Shown in pieces: positions 9,725 to 29,416 of a stretch of DNA of 64,000 nt (its first letter is position 1; every line of letters starts with the position of its first letter). The notes under the pieces are model-generated. The model searched no databases, had not been told where the DNA came from, and was given only the letters and a program-made list of their open reading frames with translations. The translations under genes were made by a program, and so were the position numbers. Source of the stretch: Archangium primigenium (GTDB lineage Bacteria > Myxococcota > Myxococcia > Myxococcales > Myxococcaceae); contig NZ_JADWYI010000001.1 in assembly GCF_016904885.1 (NCBI RefSeq), positions 4,092,001 through 4,156,000 on the forward strand. Reading direction: 5' to 3'.

Positions 9725-12700
9725 ATGATGGGGAGCGACAATTCGCAGGGGGCCGGGGCCCAGTCTTCCACCAAGCCGCAATGGCAGGAGGAGGAGGCCC
9801 AGGACGAAGGCGTCGCGCGGCAGGAGGGCTCACGCGAGCCCATCGCGGTCGTGGGGTTGGCGTGCCGGTTTCCGGGAGCGCCGGACGCGGAGTCGTTCTG
9901 GCGGCTGCTGTGTCACCAGGAGGATCTGCTGCGCGAGGTGCCCGCGGAGCGCTGGGACGCGCGGGCCTGGTACGACGCGGACCCGGGCGCGCCGGGGCGG
10001 ATGAACACGCGCCATGGCTACTTCCTGGACGGGGTGAGCGGGTTCGATCCGCTCTTCTTCGGCATCTCCCCGCGCGAGGCGGCGGAGATGGATCCCCAGC
10101 AGCGCATGATGCTGGAGGTGGCGTGGGAGGCGCTGGAGGACGCGGGCCTGCCGCCGGCGAGCCTCAAGGGCAGCCGCACCGGCGTGTTCATGGGCTCCAT
10201 CTGGCACGACTACGCGGACCGGCACCTGCGCGAGCGCGCGGCGGTGACGCTGCACAGCGCCACGGGCCAGTCGCTCAACATCGTGGCCAACCGCCTGTCC
10301 TACGTGCTCGGGCTCAAGGGGCCGAGCCTCACGGTGGACACGGCGTGCTCCTCGTCGCTCGTGGCGGTGCACCTGGCGTGTCAGAGCCTGCGCTCGGGGG
10401 AGAGCCGGCTGGCGCTGGTGGGCGGCGTGAACCTGATGTTCTCGCCCGAGGCGAACGTGCTCCTGTCCAAGTTCGGCGGGCTGTCGCCGGACGGGCGCAG
10501 CAAGGCGTTCGCCGCGGGGGCCAACGGCTTCGGGCGGGGCGAGGGCGCGGGGCTCGTGGTGCTCCAGCCCCTGTCGGCGGCGCTCGCCGCGGGCGCGCGC
10601 ATCTACTGCGTCATCCGCGGCAGCGCGGTGAACAACAACGGCCTGGGCAACGGCCTCACCGCGCCGAGCGTGCCCGGCCAGGCGGCGCTCCTGCGCGAGG
10701 CCTACGCGCGCGCGGGGGTGCCCGCCCAGCGCGTGCACTACGTGGAGACGCACGGCACGGGCACCGCCCTGGGAGACCCCACCGAGGCGAGCGCCCTGGG
10801 CGCGGCGCTCGGCGAGGGGCGCGCCATCGACCGGCCGCTGTACATCGGCTCGGTGAAGTCGCACATCGGCCACCTGGAGGGGGCCGCGGGCATCGCCGGC
10901 GTCATCAAGGTGGCGCTCGCCTTGTCACACCGGCTGGTGCCGCCGCACCTGCTGCACGGCGAGCCCAACCCCCGCATCCCCTTCAGCGAGCTGCGCCTGA
11001 GCCTGCCCCGGCAGCTCCTGCCGTGGCCGGGCGAGGAGGGGCCGGCCACCGCGGGCGTGAGCGCGTTCGGCTGGGGCGGCACCAACGCGCACGTGGTGCT
11101 GGAGGAGGCGCCGCTCGGGGGCGAGGAGCTCCTGGTGCTGGCGGCCGACAGCGCCGAGCAGCTCCTGGCCCAGGCGGCGCGCGCGGAGGAGAGCGTGCAG
11201 CACCGCGAGGCCCCCGCGGGCGTGCGCGACCTGTGCCGCGCCTGGGCGCTGGCGGCGGGCACGGGCGGCCACCGGGCGGCGTTGAGCTTCGGCACGCGCT
11301 CGGAGCTGACGGCGCAGCTCAAGAGCCTGCGCCAGGGCAAGCGCCGCGCGGGCCTCTTCACCGGGGAGCCCGGCGGGCCGTCGCCGCGCGTGGCCTTCGT
11401 GTGCGCGCCCCAGGGCTCGGAGTGGCCCGCCATGGGCCGGGAGCTGCTGGCCACCGAGCCCGTGTTCCGCGCGGCCCTGGAGGCCCTGGACAAGACGTTC
11501 ATGCCGCTGGCGGGCTGGTCCCTGGTGGAGACGGTGCGCGAGCCGAGCGCGCGCATGGCCGAGGACGAGGACGCCGCCGAGCCGCTCGCGTTCGCGGTGC
11601 AGATGGGCCTGGCCGCGCTGTGGCGCTCCTGGGGCGTGGAGCCCGAGGTGGTGCTGGGCCATGGCGTGGGCGAGGTGGCCGCGGCGTGCATCGCCGGGGG
11701 CCTGGAGGCCTCGGACGCGGTGTGGAAGGTGTACCGCGCGTGCCGCCTGCGGCAGTGGGAGCCCCTGCGCGACGAGCTGGAGGCCGCCCTCACGCGCCTG
11801 GAGGCCCGGGACGCGGGGCCGCGCTGGGTGTCCACCGTGGCGCGCGAGGGCGAGGCCAAGTGCCGCACCCTGCGCCAGCCCGTGCGCTTCGCCCAGGCCG
11901 CCGAGCGGCTGGTGGCCGAGGGCGTGGACGTCTTCGTGGAGCTGAGCGCGCACCCGGTGCTCTGCCGCCCGGTGGAGCAGCTGTTGCGCAAGGCCGCGCG
12001 GCCCGGCGTGGTGGTGGGCTCGCTGCGGCGCGACGAGCCGCGGGCCGCCCTGTGCGAGGCGCTCGGGGCGCTGTTCGCCCGGGGCGTGCGCATCCGCTGG
12101 TCCGCCATGCCGCCGCCCGAGTCCCCCGTGCTCGGGCCGTCCGGAGAGGGCGGGTTGATTCCCTGGCCCATGGCGGCGAGCGGACGCGCGGAGCTGCTGC
12201 CCCTGTCCGCCCAGACGCCCGAGGCGCTCGCGCGCACCGCGCAGCTGCTCCTCACGCGCCTGCGCGAGCGCCCGCTGTCCTTGCACGACGTGAGCTACTC
12301 GGCCGCCGCGCACCGGGGCCATCTGCACTACCGGCTCGCGCTCCGGGCGCGCTCGCTCGCCGAGGTGCACGACGGCCTGGGCGCCTTCCTGCGCGGGGAG
12401 CTGCCCCCGGGCCTGTCCACCACGCGCCACGCGGACGGACGGCACCAGCCCGTGGTGTTCGTCTTCCCGGGCCAGGGCTCGCAGTGGGCCGGCATGGGGC
12501 GGCGCCTCATGGTCGAGGAGCCCGTGTTCCGCGACGCCCTCCAGCAGTGTGACGCGGCGCTGCGCCGCTACGTGGACTGGTCCCTCTTGACGCTGCTCGG
12601 CTCGGACGCGCCCGGGTGGATGGAGCGCGTGGATCAGGTGCAGCCGGCCATCTTCTCCATCCAGGTGGCGCTCGCGCGGCTGTGGCGCTCCTGGGGCATC

Positions 12701-15700
12701 GTCCCGGACGGGGTGGTGGGCCACAGCATGGGCGAGGTGGCCGCGGCGCACGTGGCCGGCGCCCTGAGCCTCGACGACGCGGCGCGGGTCATCTGCCGCC
12801 GCAGCCTGCTGCTGCGCCGCGTGAGCGGCCAGGGCGGCATGGCGGTGGTGGAGCTGTCCCTGGAGGAGGCGCGCGCCGCCATCGCCGGGCTGGAGGACTG
12901 GCTCGCGGTGGCCGTGAGCAACAGCCCGCGCTCGTGCGTGCTCTCCGGCGAGCCGCACGCGCTCGGCCAGGTGCTCGACGCGCTCGAGGCCCGCCAGGTC
13001 TTCTGCCGCCGCGTCAAGGTGGACGTGGCCTCGCACAGCCCGCAGATGGACGTGCTGCGCGAGGACTTGCTGCGCGCCCTGGAGGACCTCTCGCCGCGCA
13101 AGGGCGACATCCCCCTGTACTCCACCGTGACGGGCCAGGTGCTCGACGGCGCGGACATGACGCCCGCCTACTGGGTGCGCAACCTGAGAGACCCCGTGCT
13201 GCTCTCGCAGGTGGTGGAGAAGCTGGCCACCGCGGGCCACTCGCTCTTCGTGGAGGTGAGCCCCCACCCGGTGCTGCTGCCCCCCATCGAGCAGACCATC
13301 GCCCACCTGGGCCTGGAGGGCACGGTGCTGCCCTCGCTGCGGCGCGAGCAGTCCGAGCGCGAGGTGCTGCTGGAGACCCTGGGCGCGCTGTTCGCCGTGG
13401 GCCACGAGGTGGAGTGGAAGGCGCTCTTCCCCGAGGGCGGCCGGCGGGTGCGGCTGCCGGACTACCCCTGGCAGCGCCAGGAGTGCTGGTTCCAGCCCGG
13501 CGTCCAGGACGCCCCGCCGGTGGGCGGGGCGAGCCCGGGCGCGCGCGGCTCGGCGGGCGCCTCGTTCCTCGGCCCGGTGCGCCGCTCCTCGCTGCGTCCC
13601 GGCGCCTTCCTCTGGGAGGTGGAGCTGAGCGTGCGGCAGGTGCCCTGGCTCACGGACCACCGCGTCCAGGGCACGCTCGTGCTGCCCACCACGGCGTACC
13701 TGGACTGGGTGATGACGGCGGTGCAGGTGGCGCTCGGCCCCGGGCCCTGGTGCCTGGAGGAGCTGCGCATCGACGAGGCCCTGACGCTCGTGGGCGACAG
13801 CGCGCGCCGCATGGAGCTGCTCGTGGACGTGGGCTCCACGGGGGCCATCTCCTTCAAGGTGTCCAGCTTCGTGCCCGCGGGCGGGGGCGGGGGGCCGGAG
13901 ATGTGGACGGTGCACGCGCACGGCCGCGTGCGCACGCCGGAGGACACCGGGCCCACCGCGGCGTCGCTCGCCGAGCTGGAGGCGCTGCGCCAGCGCGCGA
14001 CCGAGGTGCTCATCGGCGAGTCGCACTACCAGGAGATGGCGCGGCGCGGGCTGGAGTACGGCCCCGCCTTCCGGGGCGTGCGTGAGGTGTGGCGCGCGGA
14101 GGGCGAGGCCGTGGGCCGGCTGGCCCTGCCCGAGGTGCTGGGCACGGTGGATCCCCTGCACCCGAGCGTGCTCGACGCGGCGCTCCAGGTGGTGCTGCAG
14201 GCGCTGCCCTCGGACGACACGTCCTTCGTGCCGGTGGGCCTGCGCCGCTTCGAGGTGCGGCGGCGGGGCACGCCCGTGTGGGCCCAGGCGCGGCTGCCTC
14301 CGCGCGAGTCCTGGCGTCCGGGCGCCGTGCTGGAGGGCGAGGTCGTCCTGATGGATGCGCAGGGCCTGGAGCTCGCGCGGGTGACGGGCCTGGAGCTGGC
14401 CGCGCTCGCCACGAGCCTGGGCCGGGTGCGCGCCGAGCAGGATCGCTCCCTCTTCGAGTTCGCCTGGCGCCGCGCGGCGCTGCCCGCCGGAATCGAGCCC
14501 GGCCCGTCCGAGGTGCCCTGGCTCGTCTTCCAGGACGCCTCGGGCGTGGGCGGAGCCCTGTGCGAGACGCTGGAGTCCTGGGGCCTGCCGTGCGTGCGCG
14601 TGGAGGCGGGCGCGAGCCTGCGCCGACTCTCCTCCCGGCACTACACCGTGGCGCCCGGCTCGCGCGACGACCTGAACACGGTGCTGCGCCAGTGCTTCCC
14701 CGAGGAGGGCTCGTGCGCGGGCGTGGTGTACCTGTGGGGCCTGGACGCGCCGGAGCCGGACGTGACGGGCGAGCGGGCCCTGGAGGCGGCCCTGCGGGCC
14801 TGTGGCGGCGCGCTGCGGGCCGTGCAGGAGGTGGTGAAGCTGGGCTGGCGGGATCCTCCGCGCCTGTGGCTGGTGACGCGCGGGGCCACGCCGGTATTGG
14901 GCACGCCCATGACGGGCGCGCTCCAGGCGGCGCTCTGGGGGCTCGGGCGCACGGTGGGGCACGAGCACCCCGAGTTGCAGTGCACGTGCGTGGACCTGGA
15001 TCCCTCCTCGGCGCTGGTGGACGTGGAGGCGCTGGGCCGGGAGTTGCTGGCGCGCGCCGAGGACGAGCAGGTGGCGCTGCGCGCGGGCAGCCGACTGGCG
15101 GCGCGGCTGGTGCGGCGCTCGGGGACGCGCGAGCCGCACCAGGAGCCCCTGCTGCCGGTGCTGGGCCGGGCCTTCCAGGTGGAGACGCCCCCGGCGGGCT
15201 CCTTCGGCGGGGTGGTGGTGCGCATGGCCGAGCGGCGTCGGCCCGGCCCCGGCGAGGTGGAGATCGCCGTGGAGGCCTCGGCCCTCAACTTCATCGACGT
15301 GATGAAGACCATGGGCCTGTACGTGATGAAGGACGCCAAGAAGGGCGTGCCCCTGGAGGGGCTGCCCCTGGGCCTGGACTGCGCGGGCCGGGTAGTGGCC
15401 GTGGGCGAGGGCGTGACGGCGCTCGCCGTGGGCGACGAGGTGGTGGCCTTCACCCCCTCGGCCATGGCGTCCCATGTCGTCACCGACGCGCGCTTCGCGG
15501 TGCGCCGGCCCGCGTCGCTGAGCGCCGAGGAGGCCTGCGCCATTCCCAGCGTCTTCATGACGGCCTGGTACGCCTTGAATGACCTCGGGCGGCTGCAAGA
15601 GGGCGAGCGGGTCCTCATCCACTCGGCGGCCGGCGGCCTCGGGCTCGCGGCGGTGCAGGTGGCCCAGGCGCTCGGCGCGGAGGTGTTCGCCACCGCGGGC

Positions 15701-17449
15701 ACGCCCGAGAAGCGCGAGCTGTTGCGCGGTCTGGGCATCCGCCACGTGATGGACTCGCGCACGCTCGCCTTCGCCGACGAGGTGCTGCGCGTGACGGGCG
15801 GGGAGGGCGTGGACGTGGTGCTCAACTCCCTGTCCGGCGACGCCATCACCCGGAGCATGGAGGTGCTCGCCCCGGACGGCCGCTTCCTCGAGGTGGGCAA
15901 CCGCGACATCCACGACGGGCGCGCGCTCGACCTGTCGCAGTTCCGCCGCCGACTCGTCTACGCGGCGATCGATCTGGTGGGTCTGCGCGAGCATCGGCCC
16001 AAGGTCTGCGCCCGGCTCTTGCGCGAGGTGATGGACCTCATGGCCTCCGGCGAGCTCAAGCCCGTGCGCCACCAGGCCTTCCCGGTGTCGCGCGTGTCCG
16101 ACGCCTTCCGCGAGATGGCGCAGGGCCAGCACGTGGGCAAGCTCGTCGTCACCCTGGACGATCCCAAGCTGCGCATCGTGCCGCCCCGGCCCGGCTTCCG
16201 CGTCCGCGCGGAGGGCACCTACCTCATCACCGGCGGCCTGGGCGGCCTGGGCCTGTCGGCGGCCCGGTGGCTCGTGCGGCGGGGGGCGCGCAGCCTCCTG
16301 TTGCTCGGGCGTCGGGCGCCGTCCGCGTCCGTCCTGGCGGAGCTGGACGCGCTGCGCGCCGAGGGCGCGCGCGTGGAGGTGGAGCGCGTGGACATGGCGG
16401 ACACCACCCGGCTCTCGGAGGTGGTGGGCCGCACGCACGGCGAGCTGCCCCAACTGCGCGGCGTCCTGCACTGCGCGGGCGTGCTGGATGACGGCGTGCT
16501 GGAGCAGCAGGAGCCGGCGCGCTTCCGCGAGGTGCTCAGCCCCAAGGTGCGCGGCGCGTGGTCGCTGCACACCCTCACCCGGGACGAATCGCTGGACTTC
16601 TTCGTCCTCTACTCCTCCATGTCGGCGCTGCTGGGCATGCCGGGCCAGGGCAACTACGCGTCGGCCAACGCGGCCATGGACGCGCTGGCCCACCACCGGC
16701 GCCAGCAGGGCCTGCCGGCGCTCAGCGTGAACTGGGGCCCCTTCTCCGAGGTGGGCCTCGCCGCGGCCCAATCCAACCGGGGCGAGCGCCTGGCCTACCA
16801 GGGCATGGCGAGCTTCACCCCGCAGCAGGGCGAGGCGCTGCTCGAGCGGCTGCTCGCGGAGGGCGCGGTGCACGTGGGCGCGGTGTCGCTCGACCTGCGC
16901 CAGTGGTTGCAGTTCTTCCCCAACGCCGCCTCCCAGCGCGTGTGGGAGGAGCTGGCGGCGGAGCGCGGCGGCGAGGGCGCGAAGAACAAGTCCGCCCTGC
17001 TGATGGATCTGCGGCGCGCCGCGCCCCCGGCCCGCGCGGGCCTCCTGGAGAACTACCTGCGCGAGCGGCTGTGCCACGTGCTGCGCGTGGACGCGGGGCG
17101 CGTGGGCCGACACGATGCCTTCCGGGGCCTGGGCCTGGACTCGCTCATGAGCCTGGAGCTGCGCAACCGCATCGAGGCCGCGCTGGACCTGAAGCTGTCG
17201 GTGACGCTGCTGTGGGCCCACTCCACGCTGGCGGCGCTCGCCACCTACCTGCTGGAGCAACTGGGCCTGGGCGCCCCGGCCGAGCGCGCCGCGGCGCCCT
17301 CCGGCAAGAAGGACAAGGACAAGCCCCGCGCCAAGGAGACGCGGCCTCCGCCCGCCGCCCCCGAGTCCCGGCCGCTCGTGGACCTGTCCGAGCGCAAGCT
17401 GCTCGAGATGGCGGATGACGCCCTGGCCGCCTGGGAGGACGCGTCGTGA
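9725..17449 (+). CDS. Type I polyketide synthase, one fully reducing module with tandem AT: KS-AT°-AT-DH-ER-KR-ACP
   Basis: The 2574-residue protein is a complete extension module. KS (~38-460) has Cys208, His343 and His383. A first AT (~555-795) is degenerate: APQGSEW replaces GQGSQW, Gly647 replaces the active Ser (GHGVGE), and about 80 residues of the core are missing. The second AT (~908-1205) is intact with Ser1001 (GHSMGEV) and VASHSPQMD, a methylmalonyl-type signature. DH (~1279-1565) has His1312 in HxxxGxxxxP and Asp1484. A structural KR half precedes ER (~1816-2149, GGLGLAAVQ). KR (~2162-2345) has Tyr2311 and an LDD motif (B-type). ACP carries Ser2473. It should add a fully reduced methyl-branched unit, as mycobacterial mycocerosic acid synthase does, possibly iteratively. 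No loading domain is present. ATG 9725 has AGGAAGG 6 bases upstream. The stop overlaps the next start (GTGA). Confidence 0.95.
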   Translation: MMGSDNSQGAGAQSSTKPQWQEEEAQDEGVARQEGSREPIAVVGLACRFPGAPDAESFWRLLCHQEDLLREVPAERWDARAWYDADPGAPGRMNTRHGYFLDGVSGFDPLFFGISPREAAEMDPQQRMMLEVAWEALEDAGLPPASLKGSRTGVFMGSIWHDYADRHLRERAAVTLHSATGQSLNIVANRLSYVLGLKGPSLTVDTACSSSLVAVHLACQSLRSGESRLALVGGVNLMFSPEANVLLSKFGGLSPDGRSKAFAAGANGFGRGEGAGLVVLQPLSAALAAGARIYCVIRGSAVNNNGLGNGLTAPSVPGQAALLREAYARAGVPAQRVHYVETHGTGTALGDPTEASALGAALGEGRAIDRPLYIGSVKSHIGHLEGAAGIAGVIKVALALSHRLVPPHLLHGEPNPRIPFSELRLSLPRQLLPWPGEEGPATAGVSAFGWGGTNAHVVLEEAPLGGEELLVLAADSAEQLLAQAARAEESVQHREAPAGVRDLCRAWALAAGTGGHRAALSFGTRSELTAQLKSLRQGKRRAGLFTGEPGGPSPRVAFVCAPQGSEWPAMGRELLATEPVFRAALEALDKTFMPLAGWSLVETVREPSARMAEDEDAAEPLAFAVQMGLAALWRSWGVEPEVVLGHGVGEVAAACIAGGLEASDAVWKVYRACRLRQWEPLRDELEAALTRLEARDAGPRWVSTVAREGEAKCRTLRQPVRFAQAAERLVAEGVDVFVELSAHPVLCRPVEQLLRKAARPGVVVGSLRRDEPRAALCEALGALFARGVRIRWSAMPPPESPVLGPSGEGGLIPWPMAASGRAELLPLSAQTPEALARTAQLLLTRLRERPLSLHDVSYSAAAHRGHLHYRLALRARSLAEVHDGLGAFLRGELPPGLSTTRHADGRHQPVVFVFPGQGSQWAGMGRRLMVEEPVFRDALQQCDAALRRYVDWSLLTLLGSDAPGWMERVDQVQPAIFSIQVALARLWRSWGIVPDGVVGHSMGEVAAAHVAGALSLDDAARVICRRSLLLRRVSGQGGMAVVELSLEEARAAIAGLEDWLAVAVSNSPRSCVLSGEPHALGQVLDALEARQVFCRRVKVDVASHSPQMDVLREDLLRALEDLSPRKGDIPLYSTVTGQVLDGADMTPAYWVRNLRDPVLLSQVVEKLATAGHSLFVEVSPHPVLLPPIEQTIAHLGLEGTVLPSLRREQSEREVLLETLGALFAVGHEVEWKALFPEGGRRVRLPDYPWQRQECWFQPGVQDAPPVGGASPGARGSAGASFLGPVRRSSLRPGAFLWEVELSVRQVPWLTDHRVQGTLVLPTTAYLDWVMTAVQVALGPGPWCLEELRIDEALTLVGDSARRMELLVDVGSTGAISFKVSSFVPAGGGGGPEMWTVHAHGRVRTPEDTGPTAASLAELEALRQRATEVLIGESHYQEMARRGLEYGPAFRGVREVWRAEGEAVGRLALPEVLGTVDPLHPSVLDAALQVVLQALPSDDTSFVPVGLRRFEVRRRGTPVWAQARLPPRESWRPGAVLEGEVVLMDAQGLELARVTGLELAALATSLGRVRAEQDRSLFEFAWRRAALPAGIEPGPSEVPWLVFQDASGVGGALCETLESWGLPCVRVEAGASLRRLSSRHYTVAPGSRDDLNTVLRQCFPEEGSCAGVVYLWGLDAPEPDVTGERALEAALRACGGALRAVQEVVKLGWRDPPRLWLVTRGATPVLGTPMTGALQAALWGLGRTVGHEHPELQCTCVDLDPSSALVDVEALGRELLARAEDEQVALRAGSRLAARLVRRSGTREPHQEPLLPVLGRAFQVETPPAGSFGGVVVRMAERRRPGPGEVEIAVEASALNFIDVMKTMGLYVMKDAKKGVPLEGLPLGLDCAGRVVAVGEGVTALAVGDEVVAFTPSAMASHVVTDARFAVRRPASLSAEEACAIPSVFMTAWYALNDLGRLQEGERVLIHSAAGGLGLAAVQVAQALGAEVFATAGTPEKRELLRGLGIRHVMDSRTLAFADEVLRVTGGEGVDVVLNSLSGDAITRSMEVLAPDGRFLEVGNRDIHDGRALDLSQFRRRLVYAAIDLVGLREHRPKVCARLLREVMDLMASGELKPVRHQAFPVSRVSDAFREMAQGQHVGKLVVTLDDPKLRIVPPRPGFRVRAEGTYLITGGLGGLGLSAARWLVRRGARSLLLLGRRAPSASVLAELDALRAEGARVEVERVDMADTTRLSEVVGRTHGELPQLRGVLHCAGVLDDGVLEQQEPARFREVLSPKVRGAWSLHTLTRDESLDFFVLYSSMSALLGMPGQGNYASANAAMDALAHHRRQQGLPALSVNWGPFSEVGLAAAQSNRGERLAYQGMASFTPQQGEALLERLLAEGAVHVGAVSLDLRQWLQFFPNAASQRVWEELAAERGGEGAKNKSALLMDLRRAAPPARAGLLENYLRERLCHVLRVDAGRVGRHDAFRGLGLDSLMSLELRNRIEAALDLKLSVTLLWAHSTLAALATYLLEQLGLGAPAERAAAPSGKKDKDKPRAKETRPPPAAPESRPLVDLSERKLLEMADDALAAWEDAS

Positions 17450-20400
17450 GCGAGGAGGTGAAGGACGAGCTCAAGCAGCGCCTGGCGCGCGCCGTCCTGG
17501 TGATGCAGAAGATGCAGGCGCGCATCGACACGCTCGAGCGCGCCCGCTCCGAGCCCATCGCCGTGGTGGGCATGGGCTGCCGCTTCCCCGGGGGCGCGGA
17601 CACGCCCGAGGCCTTCTGGGAGCTGCTCGCCGCGGGGCGCGATGCCGTGCGGCGCGAGCCCGCCTCCCGGCGCGTGGGTTCGGACAGCACCACCCGTTGG
17701 GCGGGCTACCTGGACGACGTGAGCGGCTTCGACGCGGACTTCTTCGGGCTGTCGCCCCGCGAAGCCGCGAGCCTGGATCCCCGCCAGCGCATGCTCCTGG
17801 AGGTCGCCTGGGAGGCGCTGGAGCACGCGGGGCAGGATCCCGAGCGGTTGATGAACACGCCCACGGGCGTCTTCGTGGGCCTCACGGGCGATGACTACGC
17901 GCGCCTGTTGCCCGCCGAGCCCGAGCGCATCGACGCCTACTTCGGCACCGGCAACGGGCACTGCTTTCCGCCCGGCCGCCTGTCGTACACGCTGGGCCTG
18001 CGCGGGCCGAGCCTCGCGGTGGACACGGCGTGCTCCTCGTCGCTCGTGGCGGTGCACCTGGCCTGCCAGAGCCTGCGCTCGGGCGAGTGCGACGTGGCGC
18101 TCGCGGGCGGCGCCAACCTGGTGTTGGACCCGACCGTCACCCACACCCTCGTGAAGATGCAGGCGCTCTCGCCCAACGGGCGGTGCAGCGCCTTCGACGC
18201 GCGCGCCAACGGCTTCGTGCGGGGCGAGGGCGCGGGTCTCGTGGTGCTCAAGCGCCTGTCGGACGCCACCGCCCAGGGCGACACCATTCTCGCCGTGCTC
18301 CGGGGCTCGGCCGTCAACCAGGACGGGCGCTCGCAGGGGCTCACCGCGCCCAACGGGCTCGCCCAGCAGGCCCTGCTGCGTCAGGCGCTGCTCCAGGCCC
18401 GCGTGGAGCCCTCGGCGCTCGGGTACGTGGAGGCCCATGGCACCGGCACCCCCCTGGGCGATCCCATCGAGGTGGAGGCCCTGGTGGAGGTGCTGGGCCA
18501 GGCGCGCGCGGATGGCTCGCGCTGCGCCATCGGCTCGGTGAAGACGAACCTCGGCCACCTGGAGGCCGCCGCGGGCATCGCCGGCCTCATGAAGGCCATC
18601 CTCGCGCTCCAGCACGAGGCCATTCCCCGGCACCTGAACTTCTCCCGGCTCAACCCCCGCATCCGCCTGGAGGACACGCCCTTCTTCATCCCCACGGAGA
18701 CGGTGCCCTGGACGCGCTCGGGCACACCCCGCGTCGCGGGCGTGAGCGCCTTCGGCATGAGCGGCACCAACGCGCACATCATTATAGAAGAAGCCCCGGT
18801 GCCTTTCCCGCGCCCGCGGCCCGCCACCCGGCGCAGCGCGCACCTGCTCACGCTCTCCGCTCGGAGCGAGGCCGCGCTGGAGGCGCTGGCCCGCCGCCAC
18901 GCCACGCACCTGGCCACCCACCCGGCCGAGGACGTGGCCGACGTGTGCTTCACCACCAACACCGCGCGCGCGCGCCTGCCGTACCGGCTCGCCGTGGTGG
19001 GCGACTCGGCGGCGGCGATCGCCGGTCACCTGTCCGCGTTCACGCCGGGCCACGCGCCCCGCGAGCGCCTGGCCTCGGGCCGGGCCGCGGAGGCCCCGCC
19101 CAAGGTGGCCTTCCTCTTCACCGGCCAGGGCGCGCAGTTCGCTGGCATGGGCCGCCGCCTGTTCGAGACGTCCGACGTCTTCCGCGCCGCCCTGGAGCGC
19201 TGCGCCGCGCGGCTCGCGCCGAGGATGGATCTGCTCGGGGTGCTCTTCCCCAAGGAAGGCGCGCTCTCGCCCATCGATCAGACGGGCTACAGCCAGCCGG
19301 CGCTCTTCGCCCTGGGGTACGCGCTCGCGGAGCAGTGGCGCGCGTGGGGCGTGGTGCCCACCGCCGTCATGGGCCACAGCGTGGGGGAGTTCGCCGCCGC
19401 GTGCGTGGCGGGCATCCTCTCCCTGGAGGACGCGCTGGAGCTCATCGCCGAGCGCGGCCGGCTCATGCAGGGCCTGCCGCCCGGCGGTGTCATGGCCACG
19501 GTGTTCGCCTCGCGCGAGCAGGTGGCGCCGCTGCTCGTCCGGGAGGAGGGCCGCGTCTCGATCGCCGCGGACAACGCGCCCGGACAGCTCACCGTGTCCG
19601 GCGAGGCCGAGGCCGTCGCGCGTCTCACCGCGGCCCTGGAGGCCCAGGGCATCTCCTGCCGCAAGCTCAACGTCTCGCACGCCTTCCACTCGCACCTCAT
19701 GGAGCCGATGCTCGACGCGCTGGAGGCCAAGGCGGCGCGGCTGGCGCGCAAGCCGGGGACGATTCCCCTGGTGTCCAACGTGACGGGCCGGCCCGTGGCG
19801 CCCGAGGAGCTGGGCGCGCCGGGCTACTGGCGGCGTCATGCCCGCGAGGCCGTGCGCTTCCGCGAGGGCATGGAGGCCCTGCGCGGCCTGGGCATCGACG
19901 TCTTCGTGGAGGTGGGGCCCCACGCCACGCTGCTGGGCCTGGGCCGGGCGAGCCTCGGGGACGGGCCGGGCTGGCTCTCCTCGCTGCGCAAGGGCAAGGA
20001 CGACCTGGAGCAGATGTTGGACGTGCTCGGCCACCTGTCCGTCCGGGGCCTCGCGCTGGACTGGAAGAAAGTGGACCCGGAGCCCACGCGGCGCCGGGTG
20101 GTGCTGCCGCGCTACCCGTGGCAGCGGCAGCGACACTGGGCCCTGTCCGAGTCGGCGCCGGCTCCGCGCGCGGCGTCGGCCGAGGCGGGGGAGTTGTACG
20201 GCGTGGAGTGGCGGAGCGTGCCCGCCGCGGCGCCCGTGCCCGGCCCGGCGCCCGGCACCTGGTGGGTGCTGGAGGACGGGGGCGGCGTGGCCGAGCGGCT
20301 CGCCGCGCGCATCGAGGCCCAGGGCGGCACCTGCGTGCGCTCGCGGCGACTGCCCGAGGGCGCGGCGTGGGCCGACTGCGCGGGCGTGGTGGTGCTCTCG

Positions 20401-23400
20401 GGGCTGGACGCGCGGGACGTGACGGGTCCGGAGGTGGGCGCGGCCTGTCTGGAGCTGACGGCGGCGCTGCGGGCCCTGGAGGCGGTGCCGGAGGCGCGGG
20501 CCCGGGTCTGGGCCGTGACGCGGGGGGCGTGGCGGGAGGCGCCCGCCCAGGCGGTGCTCTGGGGCCTCGGACGGACCCTGACGCTGGAGCACCCCCGGCA
20601 CTGGGGCGGACTCATCGACCTGGACGCGGGCGGGGACGTGGACGGCCTCTGGGCGGCGCTCCAGGCCCCGGGCGGCGAGGATCAGCTCCGCCTGGAGGGC
20701 GGCACGCGGCAAGTGGCGCGGCTGGTGAAGCGCGAGCCGCCCGCGACCCAGCCCCTCGCGGTGCGCGCGGACGCCACCTACCTGGTGACGGGCGGGCAGG
20801 GCGCGCTCGGCCTGGAGCTGGCGCGCGAGCTGGTGGGTCGGGGCGCGCGGCACCTGGTGCTCACCTCGCGCGGCGCCTTCCCCGAGCGCGCGCACTGGGA
20901 CGAGCTCGTGAGCCAGGGGGATGAGCGCGCGGCGCGGATCTCCGCGGTGCGGGAGCTGGAGGCGGCGGGCGCCGAGGTGTGGCTGGTGCAGGCGGACGTC
21001 TCCCGGCGCGAGGACATGGCGGCCCTGCTCGAGCGGATGCGCGGCGCGCTGCCGCCCCTGCGCGGTCTCGTGCACGCGGCGGCGGTGTCCGAGAAGCGCG
21101 AGGGCCGGACGCTGGACGCGGACGCGCTCGGCCGCGTGCTCGCGCCCAAGGCGGAGGGGGCGTGGCACCTGCACACCCTCACGCGCGAGACGCCGCTGGA
21201 CTTCTTCGTGCTCTTCTCGTCGGTGGCCGCGGTGTGGGGCTCGGCGGGCGAGGGCGCCTACGCGGCGGCCAATGCCTTCCTGGACGCGCTCGCGGCGCAC
21301 CGGCGGGCCCAGGGGCTGGTGGCCACGAGCATCGCCTGGGGCCTCTGGGAGGGCGAGGGCACGGGGACGGCGCGGGATCGGCGGTGGTTGGAGAGCGTGG
21401 GCCTGGGCGCCCTGCCGCGCGCCTCGGGACGAGCCTGGTGGGCGCGGCTGGTGGGCGCGGACGTGACCGAGGGCGTGGTGGCCCTGGTCGACTGGGAGCG
21501 GCTGCGGCCCCTGCTCGAGGCCCGGAGCCCGAGGCCCTTGCTGTCGCTGCTGCCCGGGAGTGAGAACGTCCCGCGCGCGCCGACGCGAGGTCCCCCCGCG
21601 CCCGGGGCCCTGGACGTGCTCGTGCGCGAGACGGTGTCGCGCACGCTCGGCCTGCCCGCGGAGGCCGGGGTGGACGACACGCGCGGCTTCCACGAGCTGG
21701 GGCTGGACTCCATCATGGCGGTGGAGCTCAAGACGGGCCTGGAGGCCGCGCTGGGGCTGACGCTGCCAGCGACCCTGGCGTTCAACTACCCGAGCGTCCG
21801 GGCCCTCACGGAGCACCTGGCCACGCGGCTGGGCTCGCAGGTGGAGGAAGCCCCCGCGGCGTCCGCGCCCCGGGAGGTGGTGGACGCGGAGGAGCCCATC
21901 GCCATCGTCGGCATGGCGTGCCGGCTGCCCGGCGGCGTGGAGACCCCCGAGGCCTTCTGGCGGCTGCTGCGCGACGGCACGGATGCCATCTCGGAGATTC
22001 CCCGGGATCGCTGGGCGGTGGAGGACTGGTACGACCCCGACCCGGCCACCCCGGGGAAGATGGCCGTGCGCCAGGGCGGCTTCCTGCGCGACGTGGCGGG
22101 CTTCGATCCGGGCTTCTTCGGCATCTCGCCGCGCGAGGCGGAGAGCATGGATCCCCAGCAGCGGCTGATGCTGGAGGTGGCGTGGGAGGCGCTGGAGCGG
22201 GCGGGCCAGGACACGACGGCGTTGCGCGACTCGGCCACGGGTGTCTTCGTGGGCGTCACCACCACGGACTACGCCCGGGTCATCCTCCAGGGACGCCCCG
22301 AGGCGGTGGATGCGTGGTTCGCCTCGGGCACGTCGCTCAACGCGGTGGCCGGGCGCGTGTCGTATACGTTCGGCTTCAAGGGCCCGAGCATGGCGGTGGA
22401 CACGGCGTGCTCCTCGTCGCTCACGGCGCTGCACCTGGCGTGTCAGAGCCTGCGCTCGGGCGAGTCCACGCGGGCGCTCGCCGCGGGCGTCAACGTCATC
22501 CTCGCCCCCGAGCCGATGATGGCGGCGAGCCGGGCGCGCATGCTGGCGCCGGACGGGCGGTGCAAGACGTTCGACGCCTCGGCCAATGGCTTCGCGCGGG
22601 CCGAGGGCTGCGGGGTGCTGGTGCTCGAGCGGCTGTCGGACGCGCGCGCCCGGGGCTCCAACGTGCTGGCGCTCATCCGGGGCACGGCGGTGAACCAGGA
22701 CGGGCCGAGCAGCGGCCTCACCGTGCCCAACGGCCTGGCGCAGCGCGAGGTCATCCAGCAGGCGTTGCGGCGCGGTGGCGTGGCCCCGGCGGAGGTGAGC
22801 TATCTGGAGGCCCACGGCACGGGCACGTCGCTGGGCGACCCCATCGAGGCGGAGGCCATGTGGTCCGTGCTCAAGGAGGGCCGGGCGCCGGGCGCCTCGC
22901 TGTGGATGGGCTCGGTGAAGACGAACCTGGGCCACCTGGAGTCGGCAGCGGGCGTGGCGGGCGTGATGAAGGTGGTGCTGGCGCTGCGGCACCGGCAACT
23001 GCCCGCGCACCTGCACCTGAAGACGCCCAACCCCCACATCGACTGGAAGGGCATGGGGGTGACGGTGCCGGTGGCGCTGACGGACTGGGCGCCCACCCAG
23101 GGCCGGCGCCTCGCGGGGGTGAGCTCGTTCGGCTTCAGCGGGACGAACGCCCACGTGGTGCTGGAGGAAGCCCCCCCGGCGCCCGAGCAACCCCGGAGCG
23201 AGGCGCGCGAGCACGTGCTGCTGCTCTCGGCGCGCAGCGAGGAGGCCCTGCGGGTGCTGGCGGGCCGCTACGCGCGGGCGCTGGAGGCGGGCGCGTCCCT
23301 GGAGGACCTGTGCTTCACGGCGGCGGTGGGGCGGGCGCGCTTCGAGCACCGGGGGGCCTGGACGGCCCGGACGGCGGAGGAGCTGCGCGCGCGCCTGCTG

Positions 23401-26319
23401 GAGGTGGAAGCGGGACGGGAATTGGCGGGCGCGCGTGCGCGGGCCGAGGCGCTCGGCGAGGGCACCCCGGCGCCCCCGGGTGGACACCGGGTGGAGGCGC
23501 CCACCTATCCCTTCGAGCGCCAGCGCTACTGGTGGCGCGAGCCGGCGGTGCGTCCGGTGGCCGCGGCGTCGCATGTGCCTCACGCCGTGCCCCACTTTGG
23601 CCGGCGGCTGCGCTCGCCCGCGCTCGACGCGCTCGTGTACGAGGCGGTGTATGGCCCCTCGGGGCCGGTGCACCTGGAGGACCACCGGCTCTTCGGCACG
23701 CGGGTGGCCGCGGGCTCCTCGCACGTGTCGTTGGTGCTATCGGTGCTCCAGGACGTGCATGGCTCGCCCGTGTGCACGCTGGAGAACGTGGCCTTCCCCC
23801 AGGCCCTGTCGCTCGGGGACGACGAGGAGCGCACGCTCCAGGTCATCGTCGCGCCGCCGGAGCGGGGCGGGGCCTTCGAGGTGAAGTCCTGGAGCGGCGC
23901 GCGCGACGGCACGGACGCCTGGGTGCTGCACGCGAGCGGCACGGTGCGCGTGGGGTCCCCCACGTCCCCCGAGCCCTGGTCGTCCCGCGAGCAGCTCCTG
24001 CCGCGCTGCTCCGAGCGGCACTCCGGCGAGACGCTGTACCAGGCCATGCGCGCGCGCGGCTACACGCTCGGGCCGGGCTATCAGTGGATCCACTCGGTGG
24101 CGCGCGGCGGCCATGAGCTGGTGGGCGAGCTGCGGCTGCCCGCGCTGCGCGACTCGCTGGACGATCACGTGCTGCACCCGGGCCTGGTGGACTCGTGCTT
24201 CCAGGTGCTCGCGAGCTGGACGTTGGATCTCCTGGCGAAGCAGCAGGACACCCTGCTCATCCCCTTCAGCCTCGAGCGCTTCACCGTGCACCGCCGACCG
24301 AGGGGCGCGGTGTGGTGCCATGCGCGGATCCGCGAGGGCCGCGAGGAGGAGAACACCCTCGTGGGGGGCGACCTGCGCCTCTTCGACGAGGAGGGGCTGG
24401 TGGCGGAGGCGCTCGGCTTCCGGGGCCGGATGGCGAGCCGCGAGGTCTTCCACGTGGGCGCCGCGCCCCGCTCGGAGGACGCCCGCTACGAGGTGCACTG
24501 GGCCCCCGCGCCGCCACGCGCCCCGGGCTCGCTCCTGGACGGAGGGCGCCCCTGGAGCCTGTGGATGGATGCGGGCGGCGTGGGCGAGCACCTCGCCCGC
24601 CAGCTGGAGGCGAGCGGCGCCACGGTGCGGCGGATCCACTCCGCGGGAGAACTGCCGCCGGAGAGCCTGGGAGTGGTGTACCTCGCGGGGCTCGACGCGC
24701 GCATTCCCGACAACGCCTCCGCCGAGGCCGCCCAGCACGCGGTGCTCGAGGCGAGCGGGGGCGTGTTGGATCTCGTGAAGGCCCTGGGCGCGCGCGGAGG
24801 TGACACGCCGGTGTGGCTCGTCACCCGAGGCGCGCGGACAGTGGCGCCCGGGGCCGCGCCCGCCCTGGCCCAGGCGCCGCTGTGGGCCCTGGGCCGGGTC
24901 ATCGATCGGGAACTGCCCGGCTCGCGCTGGGCCCGGGTGGACCTGGAGCCCGGGGACGACGCGGGGGGTCTGGACCTGCTGCTCGCCGAGCTGGCCGCGG
25001 GCGTGGATCCCGCCGAGCGCGAGGTGGCCTTCCGGGGCGGCACGCGCCTGCACCCGGTGCTGCGCGAGGGCCCGCCGGTCGCGGACGGGGCCGTGGGCTT
25101 CGCGCGCGAGGCGACGTACCTCATCACCGGAGGACTCGGAGGGCTGGGCCTGGAGGTGGCGAAGTGGATGGTGGAGCGGGGCGCGCGGCACCTGATGTTG
25201 GTGGGCCGCCGGGCGCCGTCGTCCGCCGCCGAGGAGGCGATCCTCGAGCTGGAGCGCGCGGGCGCCCACGTCGCCGTCGAGTCGGTGGACGTCTCGCGCG
25301 AGGAGGACATCGTGCGGCTGCTGCACCGCATCGACGTGGACGCGCCGCCCCTGCGCGGCATCGTCCACGCGGCGGGCGTGCTCGATGACGGGGCGCTCGG
25401 CCAGCAGGACCGCGAGCGCTTCGCGCGGGTGATGGACCCGAAGGTGGCGGGCGCGTGGAACCTGCACCGGCTCACGCGGGGCCTGTCCCTGGACTTCTTC
25501 GTCCTCTTCTCCTCGGCCTCGGCCACCGTGGGCTCGCCGGGCCAGGGCAACTACGCCGTGGCCAACGCCTTCCTGGACGCGCTCGTGCACGAGCGGCGGG
25601 CCCAGGGGCTTCCAGCGCAGTCCCTCGCCTGGGGGCCGTGGGCGGAGACGGGCATGGTGGGCGCGCCCGATGGCCAGCTGGCGCGAGCGCTCGCACGGCG
25701 GGGCATCCGCCCATTGCCGACCCAGCGGGCCCTCGCGCTGTTCGAGGAGGCGCTGCGGCACGGCGCGCCGCACGTGGCGCTCATGTCCATTCAGTGGCCG
25801 GTGTACCTGGAGGCGCTCGGGGCCCTGGGCCGCTCCTCCTTCTATGGGGGCCGTGTGCCCGCGCCGGCGCGACTCCCCGCACCCGTCCGGGACGCACCGC
25901 TCGCCCGACGGCTCCAGGAGGTGGCGCCCCACGAGCGGGCCCGCCTCCTGGCGCGCGGGCTCCAGGACGAGGCGGCGCGGGTGCTGCGGCTGGAGGCCTC
26001 ACGCGTGGACTGGCGTCAGGGCTTCGCGGAGCTGGGCATGGACTCGCTGATGGCCATCGAGCTGCGGGACATTCTCCAGAAGCAGCTCGGGGTGTCGGTG
26101 CCGGCCACGGTGGCGTTGGACCACCCGACCATCGACTTCCTGGCGCGCCATCTGCTCGCCGAGGTGTTGAAGCTGGACGGGGGCGAGGTGCCCGCGGTGG
26201 CTCCCGTGCCGACGGCGGCACCCGTGGTGGCTCCGCCCGGAGCCGGGGACAACCTGGACGGGCTGTCGGACGAGGAGCTGGCGCGGCTGGTGGCGGAAGA
26301 CCTGGCGAGGGACTCGTGA
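17446..26319 (+). CDS. Type I polyketide synthase, two modules: KS-AT-KR-ACP / KS-(no AT)-DH-KR-ACP
   Basis: The 2957-residue protein starts with a coiled-coil docking helix (residues ~1-35). Module 1: KS (Cys196, His331, His371); AT (~555-870) with Ser645 (GHSVGEF) and HAFH, the malonyl-CoA signature; KR with Tyr1272, no LDD motif and Trp1264 eight residues before the Tyr, the A-type mark; ACP Ser1422. Module 2: KS (Cys1655, His1790, His1830) runs into ~115 residues of linker and then directly into the post-AT motif [10 protein letters not shown] (~2021-2030), so the AT domain is absent. DH (~2034-2332) has His2080 and Asp2249, but the usual Pro of HxxxGxxxxP is Ala. KR is B-type (LDD, Tyr2703) and ACP has Ser2867. 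A C-terminal docking tail ([15 protein letters not shown]) ends the protein. GTG 17446 overlaps the upstream stop. Expected output is one hydroxyl unit and one alkene unit. Confidence 0.95.
21892..23165 (+). repeat. KS segment duplicated in the next gene (paralogous copy at 26429-27705)
   Basis: The KS of the AT-less module and the KS of the terminal KS*-AT° protein align almost without gaps. The offset is 4537 bases at the start and a constant 4540 bases from the active-site Cys to the third catalytic position. Long stretches are near-identical in DNA, such as the coding for [11 protein letters not shown] and HLHLKTPNP. This points to internal duplication within the operon. Confidence 0.7.
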
Positions 26320-26329
26320 GGAGGACGGC

Positions 26330-28576
26330 ATGAGCGAGGAGATCAACTACCGCCAGCTGCTGCAGCAGCAGCTGGTGAAGATCCGCAAGCTGGAGGCGCG
26401 GCTGGAGCAGGCCGAGGCCGCGCGCCGCGAGCCCATCGCGATCGTCGGCATGGCGTGTCGGCTGCCGGGCGGCGTGGAGACGCCCGAGGCCTTCTGGGAG
26501 CTGATGGCCCGGGGGGAGGACGCCACGAGCGAGGTGCCCCCGGACCGCTGGGACGCCGAGGTGCTGTACTCCCCGGAGCCGGGCGCGCGGGGGAAGATCC
26601 GCACCCGGCGCGGCGGCTTCCTCCGGGACGTGGCGCACTTCGACGCGCGCTTCTTCGGCCTGTCCGACCGGGAGGCGGAGCGGATGGATCCCCAGCAGCG
26701 GCTGATGCTGGAGGTGGGGTGGGAGGCGCTGGAGCGCGCGGGGGTGGCGGTGGCGCGCGCGCGGCGCGAGCGGGTGGGCGTCTTCGTGGGGGTGATGAAC
26801 AACGACTATGGCCAGCGGGTGCTGAACACCGAGGGCCTGGAGGGCATTGATCCGCACTTCATGGGGGCGCGGGCCAACTGCGCCATCGCCGGGCGGCTGT
26901 CGTACCTGTGGGGCTTCCAGGGGCCGAGCCTGGTGGTGGACACGGCGTGCTCCTCCTCGCTGGTGGCGGTGCACCTGGCGTGTCAGAGCCTGCGCGAGGG
27001 CGAGAGCACGCTGGCGCTGGCGGGCGGGGTGAACCTCTTGCTGTCGCCCGAGGCGAGCATCTACCTGTCCAGCAGCGGGGCGCTGTCGCCGGACGGGCGG
27101 TGCCGGGGCTTCGACGCGGCGGCGGACGGCTTCGGGCGGGCGGAGGCGTGCGGGGTGCTGGTGCTCGAGCGCCTGGCGGACGCGCGGGCCCGGGGCGCGA
27201 ACGTCCTCGCGGTCATCCGGGGCTCGGCGGTGGGACATGACGGGCCGAGCAGCGCCTTCACGGTGCCCAATGGGGTGGCGCAGCGGGAGGTCATCCGCCA
27301 GGCGCTGCGGGCGGCGGACGTGGCGCCCGCGCGGGTGAGCTACCTGGAGGCGCACGGTACGGGCACGCCCATGGGCGACCCCATCGAGGCAGAGGCGATG
27401 TGGTCCGCCCTCAAGGAAGGCCGGGTGGGAGGCGAGTCCCTGTGGATGGGCTCGGTGAAGACGAACCTGGGCTACGCGGAGGCGGCCTCGGGGGTGGTGG
27501 GCATGATGAAGGTGGTGCTGGCGCTGCGGCACGGCCAACTGCCGCCGCACCTGCACCTGAAGACGCCCAACCCGCGCATCGACTGGGCGCGCATGGGCGT
27601 CACCGTGCCGCGCGAGCTGACGGCGTGGACGCCCACCCAGGGCGAGCGCGTGGCGGGGGTGACCTCCTATGGGCGCACGGGCACGGTGGCGCACGTGGTG
27701 CTCGCCGAGCCTCCCGCGCGCGCCGAGGCGGTGCCGGGCGTGGAGCGGCCCGCGCATTTGTGGGTGGTCTCGGCGCGGAGCGAGGCGGCCCTGCGCGCGC
27801 AGGTGGAGCGCCACGCGCGCTTCCTGGAGACGAGCCCCGAGCCCCTGGGTGACCTGTGTTTCACGGCCGCCACGGGGCGCACGCACTTCGAGCACCGGCT
27901 GGCGGTGGTGGGGCGGGACGCGCGTGAGGTGCGCGAGGGGCTCTTGCGCGCGGCCTCGGCGCGGCTCGCTCCGCCCGTCACCGCCGCGCCCGGCGTGGTG
28001 TTCGTCTTGAGGAGCGACGGCCCGGCCTTCCCGGAGGAGACGCGGGCGCTGTTCGACACCCAGCCCGTGTTCCGCGAGGCGCTGGAGGCGGGCGCGAGCG
28101 CGAGCGGGGGCCTCGTGGACGGGCCCCTGTTGCCGGTGCTGTTCGGCGGCGCGGCCAGCGACGCGATGGCCCGGGCGGCCGGGTTCGTGCGGACGTGGGC
28201 GCTGACGCGGCTGTGGCGCGCGTGGGGCGTACGGCCGGAGGCCTGGGAGGCCCCGGGCGTGGGCGCCTGGGTGGCGGCGGTGGCCGCCGAGCGGGTGGGC
28301 CTGGCGGAGGGTCTGCGGGGCGCGCTCGCGGGCACGGTGGCGCCTCCCGTGGTGAGCCCCGTGGACGCGGCGGCGACAGTACGACTGGAGCTGGACTCAC
28401 CGGCGTGGAGCACGCTGCTCACGTCACTCGGCGCGCTGTATGTCCGGGGCGTGGAGGTGGACTGGGCGGCCATCGAGCCCTCCCGGGTCCGGCGCCGCGC
28501 TGTCCTGCCGACCTATGCCTTCCAACGCGAGCGCTACTGGCTCACATCTCCCCGCGTCCAAGCGTCCACCGGCTGA
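26330..28576 (+). CDS. Terminal PKS protein with mutated ketosynthase and degenerate AT (KS*-AT°), no ACP or TE
   Basis: The 748-residue protein begins with a coiled-coil docking segment (~1-33) that should receive the chain from the upstream protein. The KS (~34-465) keeps Cys207 and His342, but the third catalytic residue, normally His in GHxEAA, is Tyr382 (LGYAEAASG). The AT (~553-720) has lost GQGSQW and the GHSxG nucleophile elbow (APGVGA, Gly643 at the Ser position) and is shortened, although the post-AT motif YAFQRERYWL is kept. No ACP, TE or reductase domain follows. It cannot act as a normal extension module. Possible roles are a chain-holding or transesterifying KS, a release or cyclisation step, or a decaying remnant of a lost module. 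GAGGAGG precedes ATG 26330 and the gap to the upstream gene is 10 bases. Confidence 0.93.
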   Translation: MSEEINYRQLLQQQLVKIRKLEARLEQAEAARREPIAIVGMACRLPGGVETPEAFWELMARGEDATSEVPPDRWDAEVLYSPEPGARGKIRTRRGGFLRDVAHFDARFFGLSDREAERMDPQQRLMLEVGWEALERAGVAVARARRERVGVFVGVMNNDYGQRVLNTEGLEGIDPHFMGARANCAIAGRLSYLWGFQGPSLVVDTACSSSLVAVHLACQSLREGESTLALAGGVNLLLSPEASIYLSSSGALSPDGRCRGFDAAADGFGRAEACGVLVLERLADARARGANVLAVIRGSAVGHDGPSSAFTVPNGVAQREVIRQALRAADVAPARVSYLEAHGTGTPMGDPIEAEAMWSALKEGRVGGESLWMGSVKTNLGYAEAASGVVGMMKVVLALRHGQLPPHLHLKTPNPRIDWARMGVTVPRELTAWTPTQGERVAGVTSYGRTGTVAHVVLAEPPARAEAVPGVERPAHLWVVSARSEAALRAQVERHARFLETSPEPLGDLCFTAATGRTHFEHRLAVVGRDAREVREGLLRAASARLAPPVTAAPGVVFVLRSDGPAFPEETRALFDTQPVFREALEAGASASGGLVDGPLLPVLFGGAASDAMARAAGFVRTWALTRLWRAWGVRPEAWEAPGVGAWVAAVAAERVGLAEGLRGALAGTVAPPVVSPVDAAATVRLELDSPAWSTLLTSLGALYVRGVEVDWAAIEPSRVRRRAVLPTYAFQRERYWLTSPRVQASTG

Positions 28577-28642
28577 ACAGTCCTCTCGGTCTGGTGCCCG
28601 TTCGCCTTGTCTCGGACGGGTGGGGCGGGCACTGCTGTCCGC

Positions 28643-29416
28643 ATGAAACTCCAAGGCAAGCGGGCCCTCGTCACGGGGGCGGACTCGGGAATCGGGCAGG
28701 AGATCGCGGCGCTGTTCGCACAGGAGGGCGCGGACGTCGCCATCATCTACCACACGGACGAGAAGGGCGCGCAGGAGACGCGCCAGCGCGTGGAGAAGCA
28801 CGGGCGCCGCGCGCTCGTGCTCCAGGGGGACGTGGGGGACTCGGCCTCCGTGAATGCCTTCTTCCAGCGCGCGGTGAAGGAGCTGGGGGTCCTCGACATC
28901 CTGGTGAACAACGCGGGCCAGGCCATGGGCGAGAGCGTGCCGGTGGCCGAGCTCAAGGACGAGCAGGTCGAGAAGATCCTCCGCGTCAACCTCATGGGGC
29001 CGCTCTTCTGCGCGCGCCCCTTCATCCAGTTGCGCAAGGCGAACGGCGGCAAGGGCCGCATCGTGAACATCAGCTCGGTGGCCCAGCACCTGCCCACCTC
29101 CCAGAGCGCGCCCTACGGCATGTCCAAGGCGGGCGTGGGCTCGTTCACCCGCAGCCTGTCGGTGGAGCTGGCGCCGGATCGCATCAACGTCAACGGCATC
29201 GCCCCGGGCCTCATCCAGACGCCCATGACGCAGAAGCGCCTGGACGATCCCAAGGAGCGCGAGAAGTCGATGAAGGAGATTCCCTGGCACCGCCCCGGCC
29301 AGCCCGAGGAGATCGCCCGGCTGGCGCTCTTCCTCGCCTCGGACGATGGCGACTACGTCACGGGCCAGACGTGGGTGATCGACGGCGGCCTGACGATGAA
29401 CTGGGGCGGCGCCTGA
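28643..29416 (+). CDS. Short-chain dehydrogenase/reductase (glucose/ribitol dehydrogenase type)
   Basis: The 257-residue classical SDR has the NAD(P)-binding TGADSGIG (11-18), NNAG (89-92), catalytic Ser of NISS (~144), Tyr158 and Lys162 (YGMSK), and the C-terminal GQTWVIDGGLTMNWGG typical of glucose 1-dehydrogenase-like and general stress SDRs. The substrate cannot be read from sequence. It starts 66 bases after the PKS operon on the same strand and could be co-transcribed as a tailoring reductase, but it equally resembles stress-type SDRs not tied to polyketides. ATG 28643 was chosen because the SDR fold begins at MKLQGKRALVTG. Its stop lies 3 bases from the convergent P450 stop. Confidence 0.9.
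   Translation: MKLQGKRALVTGADSGIGQEIAALFAQEGADVAIIYHTDEKGAQETRQRVEKHGRRALVLQGDVGDSASVNAFFQRAVKELGVLDILVNNAGQAMGESVPVAELKDEQVEKILRVNLMGPLFCARPFIQLRKANGGKGRIVNISSVAQHLPTSQSAPYGMSKAGVGSFTRSLSVELAPDRINVNGIAPGLIQTPMTQKRLDDPKEREKSMKEIPWHRPGQPEEIARLALFLASDDGDYVTGQTWVIDGGLTMNWGGA

Follow-up and report, generated by a model that had tools for sequence, protein, structure and literature searches.

Among characterised systems, the one closest to the locus described here is CalA3, the terminal module of the calcimycin PKS from Streptomyces chartreusis (PDB 7WVZ), which belongs to a cis-AT assembly line (PMC10006239). CalA3 has no ACP, its AT is dead (Ser to Gly, G651), and its KS either forms an amide or hydrolyses the chain (PMC10006239). 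In its mechanism H332 acts as the base while K367 and H372 position the amine; the H372A exchange abolished amidation and raised hydrolysis about fourfold, and C197A also raised hydrolysis (PMC10006239). Other KSs are known to catalyse non-Claisen reactions, as would be expected for the KS reported here, and going by their descriptions the standalone SalC (aldol/beta-lactone formation) and the type II nonactin KSs (C-O bond formation) are akin to it in this respect (PMC9582728). The KS0 domains of trans-AT PKSs likewise have the Cys but lack a catalytic His, and elongation is not expected of them. However, they reside within assembly lines, in modules with an ACP, and pass chains on, whereas the KS considered here is part of a cis-AT line, is terminal and lacks an ACP.

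The window, i.e. the whole stretch of 64,000 nucleotides that was analysed (contig C1, positions 4092001-4156000), lies within a 9.49 Mb myxobacterial genome and harbours a unit of four codirectional genes on the forward strand. The first (8243-9412) codes for an alpha-methylacyl-CoA racemase (AMACR)-like protein with AMACR/MCR as best PDB matches; it is located directly 5' of PKS1 and is conserved together with the PKS genes. PKS1 (9725-17449) has the architecture KS1-AT1a(dead)-AT1b-DH-ER-KR-ACP, and PKS2 (17446-26319) the architecture KS2-AT2-KR-ACP-KS3-DH-KR-ACP, with module 3 lacking an AT. The fourth gene (26330-28576) starts with ATG and encodes 748 amino acids arranged as docking helix, KS, KS-AT linker, roughly half an AT, and post-AT linker, which forms the C-terminal end. 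Ten bases separate it from the stop of PKS2, and the gap is similarly short (8-10 bases) in all ten genomes that carry the gene. A Shine-Dalgarno-like AGGAGGA (26319-26325, forward strand) overlaps the PKS2 stop four bases 5' of the ATG. Both the open frame and the strong ribosome-binding site of a preliminary description of this gene were recovered.

Comparison of this terminal protein with CalA3 reveals several parallels. Both are the last protein of a cis-AT line, have an N-terminal docking domain and contain no ACP. Both keep the Cys and the first His of the KS, carry Gly in place of the AT Ser, have an altered gating loop 1, and belong to clusters without a releasing TE. The preliminary description had regarded such a terminator as unusual for a cis-AT PKS; it is not without precedent, given that CalA3 has been characterised (PMC10006239). 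The differences concern the active site and the surrounding domains. In CalA3 the second His (H372) is present and needed for amidation, whereas all ten orthologues of the terminal KS have Tyr382, together with an Arg at the gate; moreover, CalA3 has an inactive DH and KR shell around its KS, whereas the ORF described here ends after the AT. Because the terminal KS is closest to KS3 and KS4 of its own line, it arose separately from CalA3. While the concept of KS-mediated release has been established by CalA3, the present protein would, judging from its sequence, differ by the Tyr in the triad and by this separate origin. We propose, with about even confidence, that the product of the gene is a KS dedicated to chain release and derived from the last extension module of the line. 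This proposal is supported by purifying selection, by five fixed changes next to an untouched Cys207, His342 and Lys377, by the lack of any other conserved release gene, and by the precedent of CalA3 as an ACP-less, AT-dead terminal KS that releases chains.

The KS domain (residues 34-460, 26429-27709) matches the Pfam ketoacyl-synt family with 318 bits and is under purifying selection. It keeps Cys207 (DTACSSSLV), His342 (EAHGTGT) and Lys377, whereas its second catalytic His has given way to Tyr382 (NLGYAEAASG, 27473-27475) in ten of ten orthologues, an exchange seen in none of 69 canonical KSs. The exchange of the triad's last His for Tyr382, with Cys207 and His342 retained, had been noted before and is confirmed. 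Cys207 is present in all ten copies, which distinguishes the domain from KSQ domains (Cys to Gln) as well as from chain-length factors (KS-beta), in which the active-site Cys is lost. The 69 canonical KSs, taken from the same genomes and relatives, define 48 invariant alignment columns, of which the terminal KS keeps 41 in all ten copies and two more in most of them. Five columns are changed in every copy: G273A (27146-27148, Gly in 69/69 canonical KSs), N302G, H382Y, F447Y and N453L/V. The last two lie in gating loop 1, SYGRTGT(V/L)AH (residues 446-455, 27665-27694), where all ten copies also have Arg449, at a position where nearly every canonical KS has a hydrophobic residue (mostly F, M, W, L, V). 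The exchange at position 302 is located in the gating loop 2 region (residues 302-312, 27233-27265), in which Asp304 is kept.

When aligned with FabF by the GFGGTN motif, position 449 corresponds to the gating Phe400 and position 453 to Asn404, an equivalence drawn, like that with CalA3, from motifs and numbering and not from structural superposition. In FabF, Asn404 partners Asp265 and thereby couples both gating loops (PMC7138838). In CalA3, the counterpart of the loop 2 region, D294-S302, is shifted by about 14-15 Å (PMC10006239). The correspondences with CalA3 in general rely on an equal-length match (query 2-93, chain 362-453) plus the numbering of that paper. Most of the changes are located at the catalytic His or in one of the two gating loops. 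The sequence reads as a retooled site, not as a single lesion. Loss of the second His combined with changes in both gates would fit a KS devoid of the malonyl half-reaction. The earlier idea of a KS that can be acylated but does not elongate is compatible with these residues, i.e. with the retained Cys, His342 and Lys377 and the altered second His and gates, from which we infer it. The gates also bear on the possibility that the enzyme still condenses, with Tyr replacing His and malonyl on an ACP supplied in trans. In its favour, module 3 is already without its own AT, so that trans loading is probable in this line, and a Burkholderia PKS with a Tyr-KS has all other parts; nevertheless, the terminal protein offers no ACP for the extender, and gate residues with a part in the condensation half-reaction have changed as well, which makes continued condensation very improbable.

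All ten genomes searched carry the gene, four out of four from the genus of the window and six out of six from a second genus, with orthologue identities of 70-77% in the searches and 69-76% when compared with the top row of alignment A1. In each of them it adjoins PKS2 and ends at the post-AT linker. When 195 genomes of the phylum were searched with a DNA pattern of the Tyr motif, exactly these ten gave a match, one each, and codon 382 is TAC in three and TAT in seven orthologues, i.e. only Tyr codons occur. Pairwise dN/dS values (NG86) amount to 0.11-0.25 for the terminal KS versus 0.08-0.24 for KS2 and 0.11-0.32 for KS3. The gene is thus maintained and evolves as slowly as the working KS domains of the line; the AT remnant is under looser constraint (0.13-0.54). 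A dN/dS near 1 had been named beforehand as the mark of a decaying pseudogene; the values obtained indicate purifying selection instead, and together with the ten open frames in two genera they led us to reject a pseudogene. It is likewise extremely improbable that the gene is what remains of a full KS-AT-MT-ACP module in slow decay. Such a module does occupy the same slot in two genomes of a third genus (see below), and the AT is eroding, but the gene is open in ten genomes of two genera with dN/dS well below 1, the same substitutions are fixed throughout, and the ribosome-binding site and docking helix have been kept.

Across the ten orthologues, invariant residues make up 31 of 33 in the docking helix (residues 1-33, 26330-26428; modelled as a helix from 7 to 32), 67% of the KS and 29% of the AT remnant. 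This remnant (residues 551-690, 27980-28399) lacks about half of the domain and has no Pfam AT match; it evolves fast and is mostly folded in the structure model. The GHSxG motif has become APGVG, with Gly643 (28256-28258) replacing the catalytic Ser in all ten orthologues, and the GQG box is gone, in agreement with the dead AT lacking Ser and GQG that had been noted at first. The post-AT linker follows (residues 691-738, 28400-28543), and the protein ends there. An AF2 model built from a 62-sequence alignment (pLDDT 91.9, pTM 0.92) is confident nearly throughout, including most of the AT remnant; a model from the ten close orthologues only reached a pLDDT of 39. The structures that match it best are KS-AT didomains and KSs, including CalA3.

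These data have to be weighed against the view that the KS and its dead AT serve as an idle cap, which docks on PKS2 and blocks elongation or stabilises the last ACP while a free-standing thioesterase encoded elsewhere releases the chain. That conservation is highest in the docking helix, that the AT remnant is folded in the model yet useless, and that the dead domains of CalA3 are structural would all suit such a role. A cap, however, needs none of Cys207, His342 and Lys377, and these residues are unchanged in ten of ten copies although other invariant sites have changed. We therefore consider a cap unlikely, albeit an alternative of some weight.

Downstream of the terminal KS gene, an SDR gene (28607-29416, forward strand, alternative ATG at 28643) begins after 30 bases. 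None of the other nine orthologues has it downstream; for that reason it was rejected as a component, and it is probably not part of the system. We saw neither an ACP nor a TE among the downstream genes examined, and found no gene within 9 kb downstream that is common to all ten genomes; conservation of the cluster is limited to the AMACR-like gene, PKS1, PKS2 and the terminal KS gene. The initial statement that the gene is not followed by an ACP, a TE or any other release domain is thus upheld, even though the adjoining SDR gene had not been counted. Release by a type II TE encoded elsewhere in the genome could take the place of the terminal KS. The neighbourhood also speaks to a role as a KS0-like transfer station, from which the chain would move on to an acceptor encoded at another locus, for example a further ACP, CoA or a lipid. 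KS0 domains without a catalytic His do pass chains on (PMC9582728), and the nearby AMACR-like gene suggests acyl-CoA chemistry. Yet KS0s have been described from trans-AT lines, the terminal protein has neither an ACP nor a C-terminal docking domain, and no conserved acceptor gene lies nearby, so that we regard this role as improbable.

Two genomes of a third genus (G091 and G092) provide a sister line. They have the same docking helix and, in the same slot, a KS4-AT(GHSVGE)-MT-ACP module; unlike the terminal KS, this module has the canonical His at position 382, a GHSVGE-type AT, and an MT and an ACP. After the module come an acetoacetate-decarboxylase-like gene (assigned by eye, without an NCBIfam match) and an alpha/beta hydrolase gene. 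This module order was read across contigs broken at a repeat and is likely but not closed; the breaks are due to converted KS3/KS4 stretches. In a tree of the amino-terminal KS halves, the terminal KS and the KS4 of the sister line form one clade (100/99). In the tree of the carboxy-terminal halves, the terminal KS groups with KS3 of its own lineage with moderate support, and the KS4 of G091/G092 is nearly identical to their own KS3. KS3 and KS4 in these genomes are 98-100% identical over much of their carboxy-terminal halves (L071, L072, L073, L074, L099), which is a sign of gene conversion. Since the third genus has a canonical module in the same slot, the Tyr382 form is probably derived; because of the gene conversion, the His of the sister line is not an independent witness to the ancestry. 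A clade with non-elongating KSs, which had been suggested as a check, did not emerge from the trees of this line's KSs, where the terminal KS is nearest to KS3 and KS4 of its own lineage.

Relatives with a downstream ACP or TE gene missing from the window had been named as evidence against an unusual ending. In part such relatives exist, as G091 and G092 have KS-AT-MT-ACP plus a hydrolase; but neither the hydrolase nor the MT-ACP has an orthologue in the four Tyr-bearing genomes tested (G000, G002, G010, G062), where only weak hydrolase matches of 25-29%, and MT-ACP matches of 38% in other PKS genes of G010, were obtained. A nearby ACP or TE gene that had been missed was rejected on this result and on the absence of a shared gene within 9 kb. 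The ending in the Tyr-bearing genera thus looks like a replaced ending and not like a missing neighbour. That the terminal KS descends from the final extension module of the line to which it belongs is, taken jointly with a dedicated role in chain release, a scenario to which we assign an even chance.

If the terminal KS releases the chain, the polyketide on the last ACP of PKS2 would be transferred to Cys207. As the second His is missing and gating loop 1 has been rebuilt, malonyl-ACP would be neither bound nor decarboxylated, and no C-C bond would form. Instead, the acyl-Cys would be attacked by a nucleophile that His342 activates and that Lys377 and Arg449 may help to orient, which would free the product; the dead AT would be retained only as a scaffold. 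Candidate nucleophiles are water, a small amine or alcohol, or the C5 hydroxyl of the chain, which derives from module 2 and would give a delta-lactone; water or the C5 hydroxyl would fit a cluster of four conserved genes, as no extra gene is needed. By analogy with CalA3, where H372A stops amidation and raises hydrolysis, the Tyr change points to hydrolysis as the reaction that may be least hindered, more than to ester or amide formation, although the rise seen with C197A makes these figures a weak guide. More tentatively, and with rather less than even confidence, we suggest a releasing or cyclising KS that came about when the decarboxylating His was lost and both gates were rebuilt (Arg at the Phe400 gate, loss of the Asn404 partner) and that dispenses with an ACP, a TE and a DH/KR shell, being a second, independent and more minimal case than CalA3. 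Should the terminal KS release the chain, modular KSs would have become release enzymes at least two times by different active-site routes, and the ten natural variants and the canonical sister module would make the residues of the elongation-to-release switch directly testable. Furthermore, engineers would gain a release unit smaller than CalA3, and cluster software that counts only TE, reductase or C domains would miss such endings.

Tyr-KSs are rare. A strict Tyr-motif pattern searched across 84,980 species returned 31 stretches; it excludes records near the genome of the window and could miss looser Tyr-KSs. Beyond Archangium, the KS-like matches are mostly actinobacterial, usually with the first His lost too, plus scattered single cases. 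The actinobacterial group (L109, L113, L118, L120, L122, L124-L126, L128, L131-L133, L135, L136, L138) mostly has a first motif of the EAQANGS type, and some members have Ser for Cys. Those with KANLGYLETASG (L109, L113, L132, L135, L136) share with the terminal KS the Tyr at the same position and the Cys; in contrast, their first His is mostly lost (EAQANGS), no AT is seen after the KS, and there is no link by position or origin. In Burkholderia sp. BCC0506 (L112/L155), a PKS with a His-to-Tyr KS has intact AT and ACP, so that a Tyr at this position does not by itself imply release. We also rejected a broader family of Tyr-KS releasers, as the other matches mostly lack the first His and the Burkholderia one is a full PKS. 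Within the strict pattern and the loci examined, the combination of Tyr, Cys, first His, dead AT and no ACP is seen in this lineage only.

The remainder of the assembly line shows peculiarities of its own. The AMACR-like gene hints at an alpha-methylacyl-CoA starter or product. AT1a of PKS1 (11657-11674) is dead, with GHGVGE in all ten genomes and GHSLGE kept in G091, and the intact AT1b sits behind it. In module 3 of PKS2 (about 23350-23600) the AT is wholly lost, giving an AT-less module in a cis-AT line. AT3 is absent in those genomes of the window's genus that were measured; in the second genus a GxGVG remnant occurs in the genomes read (G010, G062), and the other four have a similar length. 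Because the canonical KS3 is kept while the AT is absent, the ACP of module 3 is probably loaded in trans. The HxxxGxxxxP motif of DH3 (23683-23720) has Ala for Pro in the nine genomes with the terminal KS that were read, and Pro is kept in G092; the function of DH3 is possibly altered.
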